This document shows positions 8,847-44,800 of a DNA stretch of 64,000 nt, piece by piece (positions within the stretch are counted from its first letter, which is position 1; each line of letters starts with the position of its first letter). Under the pieces are notes generated by a model that ran no database searches, was not told the origin of the DNA, and worked only from the letters and a program-made list of their open reading frames with translations. Origin of the DNA: Rossellomorea marisflavi (GTDB lineage Bacteria; Bacillota; Bacilli; Bacillales; Bacillaceae_B); the NCBI RefSeq assembly GCF_009806575.1, contig NZ_CP047095.1:414001-478000 (forward strand). The letters run 5' to 3'. Position numbers and translations under genes: made by a program.

Positions 8847-9544
8847 CGGCTGGCCTCCATTTCTTTATATTCTTGAGGGGTAATGGGTTTGAATCGGAGG
8901 CGGTCGCCTGCCTGTAATATGCCGGGAGGACAAGCCTGAGTGTCGAACAGAGCGACAGGTGTCCGGCCGATCAGCTGCCAGCCACCCGGGCTTTCCAGGG
9001 GATAGATGCCTGTCTGGCTTCCGGCGATGCCGACGGAGCCACGTGGAACCCGGAGACGCGGCTCCTTTCTTCGCGGAGTAGCGATTTCTTCAGGCATGCC
9101 GCCGAGATACGGAAATCCGGGGGAAAAACCAATCATATGAACCAGGTAAGGAGAACCGGAGTGCAACTCTATCACCTTTTCGGGAGTCAGGTCATTCCAT
9201 TCTGCCACAGACTCCAAGTCCGGTCCGAAGTCGCCCCCATAGCAGACCGGTATCTCGATTGTCCTTGGCTCTTCCTCGGCTCCGGGAGGGATGGAAGAAA
9301 GGATCGTATGTATTCTATTCATTACCGTTTCGTAAGGGAGGCGGTCCGGGTGTTCGAGCTTCATAGGATCGTAGTGAAGTGTGACCGTGGTGAAAGCTGG
9401 TACGATATCGGTGATCCAGGCTGGATCGGCTTCTTCGATGGCAGAACAGATGCTCCTGACTTTCACATGGGTAGCGTGATCGATGGAGGAACCTGCCTCG
9501 ATGACGAGGGCATGATCTCCTAAGGGACGTAAGGAATAATCCAC
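8843..9544 (-). CDS. pxpB: 5-oxoprolinase subunit B (KipI/PxpB)
   Basis: A 233-aa cyclophilin-like (AHS1) subunit of 5-oxoprolinase. Diagnostic motifs are GDHALVIEAG near the N-terminus, GFSPGFPYLGG, and RVPRGSVGIAGSQTGIYP followed by SPGGWQLIGRT. The start is a GTG at 9544 behind GGAGG at the right distance; an ATG two bases upstream is out of frame. A near-consensus promoter lies at 9591-9618. It is the first gene of a two-gene operon with pxpC. Confidence 0.92.
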   Translation of the reverse strand: MDYSLRPLGDHALVIEAGSSIDHATHVKVRSICSAIEEADPAWITDIVPAFTTVTLHYDPMKLEHPDRLPYETVMNRIHTILSSIPPGAEEEPRTIEIPVCYGGDFGPDLESVAEWNDLTPEKVIELHSGSPYLVHMIGFSPGFPYLGGMPEEIATPRRKEPRLRVPRGSVGIAGSQTGIYPLESPGGWQLIGRTPVALFDTQACPPGILQAGDRLRFKPITPQEYKEMEASR

Positions 9545-9590
9545 ATGTCATCCTCCATTCTGTTTGAATTTTTCCACTTGTCTGACTCTC

Positions 9591-9618
9591 ATTATAGTGG
9601 AATACCCAGTCATTTCAA
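9591..9618 (-). promoter_or_regulatory. SigA promoter of pxpBC
   Basis: On the minus strand TTGAAA and TATAAT are separated by 16 nt, about 50 nt upstream of the pxpB start. Confidence 0.7.
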
Positions 9619-9730
9619 CGGTGAAGGTCCAAGGGTTCCTTGAAATAGTGGAAAAATCCGGACTTTCCTTATAAAAGCGCCATCTTCCTACAACTTTGTG
9701 TTATTATTTAGTAATTCGAAATAGTCGTAT

Positions 9731-9813
9731 CGCAGGGGAGGGAGGATGTATCCCAGTCGGGTAAGGGAAGCCGGAGGTGGTTACGGCTCCGGCAAAAACC
9801 TGCCTCCCCAGCG
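9731..9813 (+). promoter_or_regulatory. strongly structured 5' leader of the MFS gene
   Basis: CGC-A-GGGGAGG (9731-9741) pairs with CCTCCCC-A-GCG (9803-9813): ten pairs around one A/A mismatch. Inside, GCCGGAG (9770-9776) pairs perfectly with CTCCGGC (9787-9793). The stretch TAAGGGAAGCCGG resembles part of a cobalamin riboswitch, but the rest of that consensus is missing. No T run follows, so a terminator is unlikely. I regard it as an unidentified RNA regulatory element; the ribosome site lies 16 nt after it. Confidence 0.5.
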
Positions 9814-9842
9814 GAACGAAGTCAGAAGAGAGGAGGGTTTCT

Positions 9843-11033
9843 ATGATTCATGCAAAAGATCCCTTGTGGACACGGTCTTTTGTGATGTTGATGGTAGGGA
9901 ACCTGTTTGTATTCATGTCATTCCAGATGCTCATCCCGACGCTTCCGCCCTATATCAAATCGATTGGGGCATCGGGTTTTGAAATCGGACTGGTCACAAC
10001 ATTATTTTCCCTCGGTGCGGTCCTCAGCCGTCCGTTCATCGGTTTCATGCTTGAGTATAAAGAAAGGAAGCCCCTCGTCTTGGGGGGAGCGGCCATGCTC
10101 CTCGCCATCACGATCATCTATCCTCTATCCAGCGTCGTCCTGATCTTCCTGTTGTTCAGGTTCGTTCACGGTCTGGTGTGGGGATGGTCCACGACGGTCA
10201 ACGGCACTGCGGCCGTTGATGTGGTCCCGAAATCAAGGCTTGGTGAGGGGATGGGCTATTACGGGTTGTCGATCACGATCGGCATGATCATCGCTCCGAG
10301 TCTCGGAATCTACCTTTACCAGGTCACGACCTTCACGAATCTGATCATCACCTCTGGTATATTGGGACTCATTGCGGTGCTACTGCTGGCGGTTGTGCGC
10401 TATCAGACCCCGAAGGTCGTCAAGGAGACGAAAAAAGAGAACCTGACCTTTTCCTATCGGGACTCCCTTATTGAAAAGTCAAGTTGGTTCCCGGCTTTCA
10501 TCACGATCGTCATCACCTTCGGCTACGGCACGATCGTGACATTCATCGTGATATTCGGAGACGAACGGGGCATCGACCATATCTTCCTCTTCTACCTCTT
10601 CAATGCGATCTTGGCGTCGCTCTCAAGGCCGATTGCGGGGAAATGGTTCGATCAGAAGGGGCCGAAGGGGCTCGTCCTGTTCTGCATTGCCGTGACGTTC
10701 ATCGGAATGTGGGTGCTCTCGTATGCCCATTCGGATGTCATGATCTCCATTGCAGGAGTTTTATTCGGAATAGGTTTCGGTTCCCTGATTCCGACGCTTC
10801 AATCCTGGACCTTGTCGTTGACACCGGAGCACAGACGCGGAGTCGCAAATGGAATGTTCTTCTCATCCATCGATCTCGGAATCGGGCTGAGCGGGCTCGT
10901 ATTCGGTGTACTGGCACAGTATATCGAGATCGGGATCTTGTTCCAGATCTCAAGTGTTTTCCTGCTGGCTGCCTTTTTTATCGCGATTTTCCACGGGAGG
11001 AAGAAGAAATTGGTGCATCAGGCTGCCTCGTAG
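9843..11033 (+). CDS. MFS transporter (drug-exporter type)
   Basis: A 396-aa, 12-helix major facilitator protein. After a cytoplasmic N-terminus the first helix (SFVMLMVGNLFVFMSF) and a loop with LGAVLSRPFIG fit 12-TMS proton-driven exporters; substrate unknown. The start is ATG 9843 because GAGGAGGG (9829-9836) precedes it; the frame is open further upstream but runs through the structured leader and has no ribosome site. Apparently monocistronic, and probably controlled by that leader. Confidence 0.85.
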   Translation: MIHAKDPLWTRSFVMLMVGNLFVFMSFQMLIPTLPPYIKSIGASGFEIGLVTTLFSLGAVLSRPFIGFMLEYKERKPLVLGGAAMLLAITIIYPLSSVVLIFLLFRFVHGLVWGWSTTVNGTAAVDVVPKSRLGEGMGYYGLSITIGMIIAPSLGIYLYQVTTFTNLIITSGILGLIAVLLLAVVRYQTPKVVKETKKENLTFSYRDSLIEKSSWFPAFITIVITFGYGTIVTFIVIFGDERGIDHIFLFYLFNAILASLSRPIAGKWFDQKGPKGLVLFCIAVTFIGMWVLSYAHSDVMISIAGVLFGIGFGSLIPTLQSWTLSLTPEHRRGVANGMFFSSIDLGIGLSGLVFGVLAQYIEIGILFQISSVFLLAAFFIAIFHGRKKKLVHQAAS

Positions 11034-20644: not shown

Positions 20645-20669
20645 GACAGGTAATCAATTTCATAAACGT

Positions 20670-20759
20670 AACCACAAGGGGAGCTGTTTTGCTGAGAGTG
20701 AACGGTCGATCCGTTCTGACCCTTTGAACCTGTTAGTTAGCACTAGCGTAGGGATGTGG
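20670..20759 (+). ncRNA. TPP riboswitch (THI element)
   Basis: Conserved blocks are all present: ACAAGGGGAGCT, GCTGAGAGTGAACG, GACCCTTTGAACCTG, then a variable arm and GCGTAGGGATGTGG. It binds thiamine pyrophosphate and represses the downstream gene, here thiT. A hairpin AAGGCA/TGCCTT follows at 20760-20777 without a T run, so control may be at translation; the thiT ribosome site lies about 50 nt further on. Confidence 0.95.
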
Positions 20760-20832
20760 AAGGCAGTTTTTTGCCTTGTAGTACATGCATTCTCCCTAAT
20801 GGTTTCGTTCATAGAAAAGGGGGATTTTTTTT

Positions 20833-27643: not shown

Positions 27644-27946
27644 ACATCGGAGGAGGCGGTCATCCCGACCGGCCTTCTCCCACGCTCTCTATTATGGAGA
27701 GGAGCGTGCATGTAACTTGCAACATCACAAGTGAATATGGTTGATTTCTTTACGTTTAAGATAATTTAAACAGCCGCGGGCAATTCTTCTTAGTCGCTTG
27801 ATCTACCTAAACGACGTAAGCCCTACCTCTCTTACATCCTAACGGCTCCGAAGCCGATCCAGTGTGAATAAGTTGTTTATGTCAAACAACTGGAGAATTA
27901 CAGATTATCTTCTCTATCGTTTGAAAGTATGTTACAAGTCTACAAT
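27604..27946 (-). ncRNA. putative structured noncoding RNA, about 340 nt
   Basis: The minus strand has a near-consensus promoter (TTGACA-N17-TATTAT, 27952-27980), no ORF worth calling, and a strong terminator at 27604-27643. Predicted hairpins in order from the 5' end: GTTGTTT/AAACAAC (27873-27891), CGGCT/AGCCG (27843-27856), GTTTAA/TTAAAC (27754-27771), ACGCTC with a matching arm ending GAGCGT (27682-27707), and GGTC/GACC in a longer stem (27658-27675). It does not match RNase P, tmRNA, SRP RNA or 6S RNA as I know them. It lies between an exporter and a SigB gene. Unknown function. Confidence 0.6.
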
Positions 27947-44560: not shown

Positions 44561-44800
44561 AAAAAAATCGCCCCTACATATCGTAGGGACGATTGGATAT
44601 CGCGGTACCACCCTAGTTATGGGACAAGCCCATCACTCTTCGGAAATAACGGCATACACCGTCTTTTGATCTCGTCAAAAGAAGCTCGGGAATCGAAATT
44701 CACTTACCGCATGTGTACCGATTTGCACCAACCATCGGCTCTCTTGAACAGGGAAGGGTTTGCTACTTGGTTCCTTCAAAGCTTTTCGTTATTTAGGTTA
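44561..44800 (-). ncRNA. T-box riboswitch, probable Phe (UUC) specifier
   Basis: Minus strand: the specifier loop shows AGTA on the 5' side and GAA-T-TTC-G on the 3' side (TTC at 44695-44697), between stems GGAA/TTCC. AGAGAGCCGATGGTTGGTG is the distal stem I; the T-box sequence AGGGTGGTACCGCG lies at 44601-44614, followed by a terminator stem (TCGTCCCTAC/GTAGGGGCGA) and seven T (44561-44594). Uncharged tRNA would favour antitermination and expression of the NSS transporter. The Phe reading rests on manual alignment to the glyQS pattern. Confidence 0.88.

Follow-up and report, generated by a model that had tools for sequence, protein, structure and literature searches.

A stable predicted leader fold upstream of a Rossellomorea marisflavi MFS exporter gene, found in three sister species

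The leader of an MFS exporter gene of Rossellomorea marisflavi raises the question of whether a very stable RNA fold that lies just upstream of a transporter gene is a riboswitch of a new kind or something less specific. The gene is located in a stretch of 64,000 nucleotides (contig NZ_CP047095.1, positions 414,001 to 478,000) that we refer to as the window. A first-pass annotation of the window had described in this leader an outer stem that encloses a perfect 7-bp hairpin and a particular stretch, and had suggested that together they might form a riboswitch of an unknown class. All three elements are where the annotation placed them: CGC-A-GGGGAGG (9731–9741) faces CCTCCCC-A-GCG (9803–9813), the hairpin arms GCCGGAG and CTCCGGC occupy 9770–9776 and 9787–9793, and positions 9762–9774 read TAAGGGAAGCCGG. 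Both the stem and the hairpin are present in the minimum free energy (MFE) structure of 9731–9842, whose energy of −49.5 kcal/mol was equalled by none of 200 shuffled sequences (mean −36.4, sd 3.35; z −3.9). The outer helix extends outward through pairing of TCGT (9725–9728) with ACGA (9816–9819), and the region 9725–9819 folded alone reaches −52.4 kcal/mol (z −5.7), with 0 of 500 shuffles as good. As far as energy modelling goes, the strong fold before the exporter gene is real, and the annotation's description of a structured leader without a family assignment, upstream of an MFS gene, is borne out by the folding, by the negative Rfam result described below and by the match of the gene product to MFS_1 (Table 1).

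Table 1 Features of the exporter locus, in window coordinates.
Feature	Position	Strand	Basis
Extended −10 promoter TG-T-TATTAT; start expected at about 9713–9716	9699–9707	+	TGnTAnTAT fused to operator in homologues
Near-palindromic operator TATTTAGTAATTCGAAATA, overlapping the promoter	9705–9723	+	conserved in homologues; genus-wide pattern scan
Structured leader: outer stem 9725–9741/9803–9819 around a junction with two hairpins	9725–9819	+	MFE, shuffles; G034 and G027 the only homologues found
TCGTATCGCA, 5′ strand of the outer stem; other Rossellomorea-group loci carry this 10-mer before the promoter	9725–9734	+	
7-bp hairpin GCCGGAG/CTCCGGC, unconserved	9770–9793	+	0/9 invariant helix pairs; 10/24 columns invariant
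Shine-Dalgarno GAGGAGG, followed by the exporter ATG at 9843	9830–9836	+	sequence
MFS exporter gene, 396 aa	9843–11033	+	MFS_1, 211.9 bits

Is the fold part of the exporter mRNA? An extended −10 promoter and the operator that overlaps it together occupy 9699–9723 in the window, and of the 82 homologous upstream regions compared, 78 match the combined pattern (TGnTAnTAT plus operator) at 15 or more of 17 positions. These regions comprise the window, the locus of genome G027 and 80 further loci (among them L041, which is genome G034) that are the best 80 of 337 encoding a relative of the exporter, their orthology being unproven; the four that fall below 15/17, and are therefore outside the 78, are L082, L094, L113 and L115. 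Because promoter and operator are conserved upstream of the gene in so many of these regions, the fold is probably transcribed. Judged from promoter spacing, transcription should start at the position given in Table 1, and the fold very probably lies in the exporter's 5′ UTR. Its first base, 9725, is about 10 nt past the expected start, which places a stable fold close to the start in the window. The annotation had raised a start downstream of 9760 as a possibility that would count against its reading; such a start is not indicated, and the conserved promoter predicts one upstream. A sigma-70 consensus scan, which needs a −35 match, did not report the promoter at 9699–9707; its sole plus-strand candidate (9571–9598) is likewise upstream of the fold.

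Among the genomes searched, the element is confined to three sister species, which we refer to as the marisflavi group. In DNA searches 10 of 61 relatives matched, 7 through the operator only, as did 22 of 36 genomes of the genus at E values up to 1, of which 3 were below 0.001; the leader itself was found only in the window genome (G000), G034 and G027. A covariance model built from these three leaders recovered its 3 source leaders and nothing else in the 36 genus genomes (E up to 0.1), the same trio of genomes among 299 of the order (E up to 0.01), and, among the 80 homologous loci (the best of 337), none outside the trio (E up to 1); the genus and order scans scored part of their first-look candidates, the order scan with stricter filters, and weak relatives may be missed. 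A score of 21 bits on the minus strand of the window is the mirror of the stem. We also considered a dispersed repeat or mobile element and rejected it: the model has one match in G000 (117 of 148 first-look candidates scored), and the only DNA match there besides the leader spans 16 bases (E 0.5). The group also stands apart in spacing, the distance from operator to start codon being 119–134 nt, roughly double the 45–64 nt of most other Rossellomorea-group loci seen (the exceptions are L056, L058, L071, L088, L089 and L099). Among the papers listed by literature searches, no title or opening of an abstract describes this leader or operator, which is no proof of absence from print.

Like the leaders of the cobalamin and other riboswitch families of Rfam 15, the leader is structured, precedes a transporter gene and has an outer stem that encloses a junction; unlike them, it matches no family. 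Specifically, the covariance-model scan that the annotation had proposed found no Rfam family, cobalamin included, that fits the leader, either at its gathering score or, within 9500–10000, at E values up to 10. The lone listing at that threshold was sR1 (E 2, 9500–9525), and the two sister loci with their flanks gave one weak match, to the greA leader; both matches lie outside the leader, and membership of an Rfam family was rejected. With respect to an expression platform, a terminator scan found none in the window, the three marisflavi-group leaders lack a terminator-like hairpin, and neither a terminator nor a sequestered ribosome site is conserved together with an aptamer in the three species. 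We modelled the effect of removing the 5′ arm of the outer stem, using a window transcript that starts at 9713 and transcripts of the other two that start about 4 nt further upstream. In the window the mean unpaired probability of the Shine-Dalgarno sequence is predicted to fall from 0.41 to 0.19 as the freed 3′ strand pairs there; in G034 it falls modestly, from 0.44 to 0.32, in the MFE structure by pairing elsewhere; and in G027 the ribosome site becomes freer (0.51 to 0.73). A Shine-Dalgarno switch is therefore clearly predicted only in the window.

A ligand-sensing riboswitch of an undescribed and very rare class, whose outer stem would hold an anti-Shine-Dalgarno strand and so switch translation, would account for the pairing of the freed strand in the window, for the invariance of GGGTAAGGG and GGCAAA across the three leaders and for the location before an exporter gene. 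The sister species do not share the predicted switch, however, and the element turned up at no other gene and in no other genus within the 36 genus genomes, the 299 order genomes and the 80 loci. What the annotation tentatively read as a riboswitch was thus found in three species and before this gene only, with no Rfam match, no conservation of the hairpin, no covariation above shuffles, a divergence equal to or above that of fourfold sites and no common Shine-Dalgarno switch; a new riboswitch class is unlikely, although with three sequences a very recent or rare one keeps some small probability, and we regard the form of it set out here as very improbable. Least probable of all the readings is a regulatory RNA that arose recently in the marisflavi group and in which the exporter substrate would open or close an outer stem holding the anti-Shine-Dalgarno strand, atop control at the operator.

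How well the structure is kept within the group was assessed in the alignment of the three leaders. Pairs of the window MFE structure are kept in 78.0% of cells, a value reached by 54 of 500 shuffles, and those of the RNAalifold structure in 88.4% (114 of 500 shuffles as high). The outer helix has 18 pairs by the former, of which 9 are invariant and 1 shows a double change (79.2% of cells paired), and 16 by the latter, with 10 invariant and 2 double changes (89.4%). Covariation, which the annotation had suggested examining in homologous leaders, is at the level of shuffles with either structure in these three sequences, and the covariation term of RNAalifold is unfavourable (+2.45). As for loss of the stems from homologous leaders, which the annotation had named as evidence against its reading, they largely are lost: among the 80 loci no match was found outside the clade, and within the clade most of the outer stem persists while the 7-bp hairpin does not (Table 1).

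These comparisons also bear on the possibility that the structure is incidental, the leader being a recently acquired G+C-rich segment that drifts nearly neutrally and only spaces the operator from the ribosome site. The leaders differ by 21.5–28.3% between the three species (identity 71.7–78.5%, gaps uncounted), as against 17.2–21.7% at fourfold sites of the exporter gene and 8.5–24.5% at those of the neighbouring pxpB, and the 110 bases upstream differ by 10–17.4% (identity 82.6–90%, above that of the leader). The leader is the most divergent class in each species pair and, taken whole, therefore shows no constraint beyond that of fourfold sites. The sister folds are weaker: that of G034 barely beats its shuffles (z −1.2, 57 of 500 as good) and lacks the outer stem in its MFE structure when start-site and coding flanks are included, and that of G027 reaches z −3.3 (3 of 500). 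The loss of the 7-bp hairpin and the shuffle-level covariation fit an incidental structure too. Set against it are the exceptional stability of the window's own fold, the greater conservation of the outer stem (24 of 32 columns invariant versus 33 of 63 in the rest; p 0.046) and a weak tendency of invariant columns to cluster (p 0.064 by runs and 0.022 by window variance, becoming 0.16 and 0.11, respectively, without the first ten columns). We rank an incidental fold second, as a possible account to which we give tentative credence.

The reading that we favour, and towards which we lean on balance, is that the leader serves an efflux gene as a structured 5′ UTR specific to this clade, most likely passive and ligand-free. 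On this reading it is a young element that at most tunes how stable the mRNA of a repressor-controlled exporter is or how well it is translated. Transcription would start at the conserved extended −10 promoter, under the control of a putative DNA-binding repressor at TATTTAG-N5-CGAAATA, and a short way downstream the marisflavi-group leader is predicted to adopt a stable, branched fold, whose 5′-proximal stem may protect the mRNA from 5′-end decay or mildly tune translation without a ligand. For a structured 5′ UTR of this kind speak the strong fold, the promoter and operator conserved upstream of it, the mostly kept outer helix with its somewhat more conserved columns, and a short hairpin at a comparable place in other Rossellomorea-group leaders (described below); against it speak the weaker sister folds, covariation no higher than in shuffles, the unfavourable RNAalifold term and the shuffle counts for that short hairpin, and the leader may be near neutral, without any effect. 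5′-terminal stabilising stem-loops are found in Firmicute mRNAs, as in the Bacillus aprE and ermC leaders. Like them the leader has a stable predicted structure near the expected start site and upstream of the ribosome site, whereas its structure is larger and branched. The case is mainly a caution: however stable, the fold of a single leader may resemble a riboswitch, yet comparison with homologous leaders points to a young element that changes fast and belongs to one clade.

Conservation of the outer stem's 5′ strand could also reflect a role as DNA. TCGTATCGCA is invariant in the three leaders while its 3′ partner strand varies, and it starts 26 bases after the −10 TG in all three marisflavi-group loci. 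The same 10-mer is found 23 bases before the −10 TG in 14 of 79 other loci (10 with 10/10 letters, 4 with 9/10), at a match level of at least 9/10 that shuffled 300-base regions reach in 0.7% of cases; these loci are L042–L046, L048–L051, L054, L055, L064, L072 and L096. The 10-mer might then be a second protein-binding site beside the operator, with the RNA stem partly a by-product. The observation is post hoc, though, the chance of some 10-mer shared between leader and upstream region being about 2% by hand arithmetic, the loci are related and hence not independent, and the binding protein is putative. We consider a second DNA site doubtful; it is compatible with both a structured 5′ UTR and an incidental fold, and the likelihoods that we attach to the three overlap.

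The operator reaches well beyond this leader. With up to one mismatch allowed, the pattern TATTTAGNNATNCGAAATA has 1–7 sites in every one of the 36 genus genomes, compared with 0–2 sites per genome for the reversed pattern used as a control. Ten stretches around further sites were chosen and read. The operator lies 29–41 bases before a NamA-like gene in L154, L159 and L161 (both genes tested, those of L154 and L159, pass the NamA cut-off) and 32–45 bases before an MFS-like gene in L153, L156 and L162, with a distance of 300 bases in L158; the tested L153 and L156 genes resemble MFS efflux families, below the cut-offs. In L160 the operator precedes a gene for a protein with no NCBIfam match at E values up to 1e-10, and L155 and L157 have no evident gene start close to the site. 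TATTTAG-N5-CGAAATA thus precedes MFS-like genes and the NADPH dehydrogenase gene namA in Rossellomorea (the window site, L153, L154, L156, L158, L159, L161, L162 and L166). In the window genome a looser pattern has 16 matches on both strands versus 6 for the control, and the second site without mismatches precedes an MFS-like gene that by eye resembles that of L156 and has a very short leader. A fold of this kind would not fit into so short a leader, so the common element is the operator and not the fold. We infer that the operator is the target of a repressor governing a xenobiotic-response set of genes. With an operator common to namA and other MFS genes, this wider frame is the more useful one.

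Downstream of the operator, the leaders of other homologous loci take different forms. Between operator and gene, 36 of the 78 homologous leaders have a terminator-like hairpin (−5 kcal/mol or lower), compared with a mean of 2.0 (sd 1.1, 20 rounds) in mononucleotide-shuffled leaders, and 33 of the 36 hairpins as printed contain ATCTTC, usually in the 5′ arm and together with a T run. Such hairpins occur upstream of the MFS gene outside the marisflavi group, in loci from L068 to L114 (for example L084, L090, L078 and L097). In L049 and L064, which are among the 36, the T run is poor and the hairpin is probably no terminator; the scan misses others, since L063 and L067 show a hairpin by eye, and L094, L113 and L115 carry one though left out of the 78. 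Many of the loci with terminator-like hairpins are close relatives and do not represent independent events. These homologous leaders of related bacilli resemble transcription attenuator leaders in the placement of the hairpin, which suggests attenuation in response to some signal, unlike the three marisflavi-group leaders; to what signal the terminator-like hairpins respond is a question that they raise. The operator followed by ATCTTC within 31 bases was found in 13 of 299 order genomes (6 of 116 genera), with 0 matches to the reversed control among the matches listed; some of the 13 genomes may be unrelated because the pattern does not require a second arm.

In other Rossellomorea-group leaders a short promoter-proximal hairpin of 6 pairs is seen, with 89.6% of cells paired and 2 double changes; the count covers 8 sequences in one register, selected from 13 that were aligned. 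The 13 were themselves chosen among loci with TCGTATCGCA upstream, leaving out L096 (same leader as L055) as well as L047, L052, L053 and L057; the hairpin is absent from L047, L052 and L053. Shuffles did as well in 57, 86, 28, 486 and 31 of 500 cases by five measures, and because of these counts the support for the hairpin is modest. A leader that varies by group between a short hairpin, a terminator-like hairpin and a branched fold, under a near-fixed promoter, offers a tractable case of leader turnover.

The exporter itself reaches the cut-off of none of the best 25 of 27 NCBIfam families, and the exporter of L041 (Rossellomorea marisflavi JCM 11544) is 99% identical to it. A longer frame from GTG 9777 was set aside, as homologues start near the position of the ATG. 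An upstream open reading frame or leader peptide was set aside on inspection by eye: G000 and G034 both have open frames running through the leader, but with different start codons and frames, and G027 lacks the ATG. The divergent upstream genes are, by NCBIfam, pxpB, which exceeds its cut-off, and one resembling pxpC that is above the TIGR00724 cut-off and below that of PxpC. Overlap of the leader with the divergent pxpB promoter was discounted, the promoter-like site of that gene (9618–9591, minus strand) being clear of the leader. Elsewhere in the window, Rfam matches above the gathering score are a TPP riboswitch (20667–20771, plus strand), a BsrC sRNA (27802–27887, plus strand) and a T-box leader (44582–44788, minus strand).
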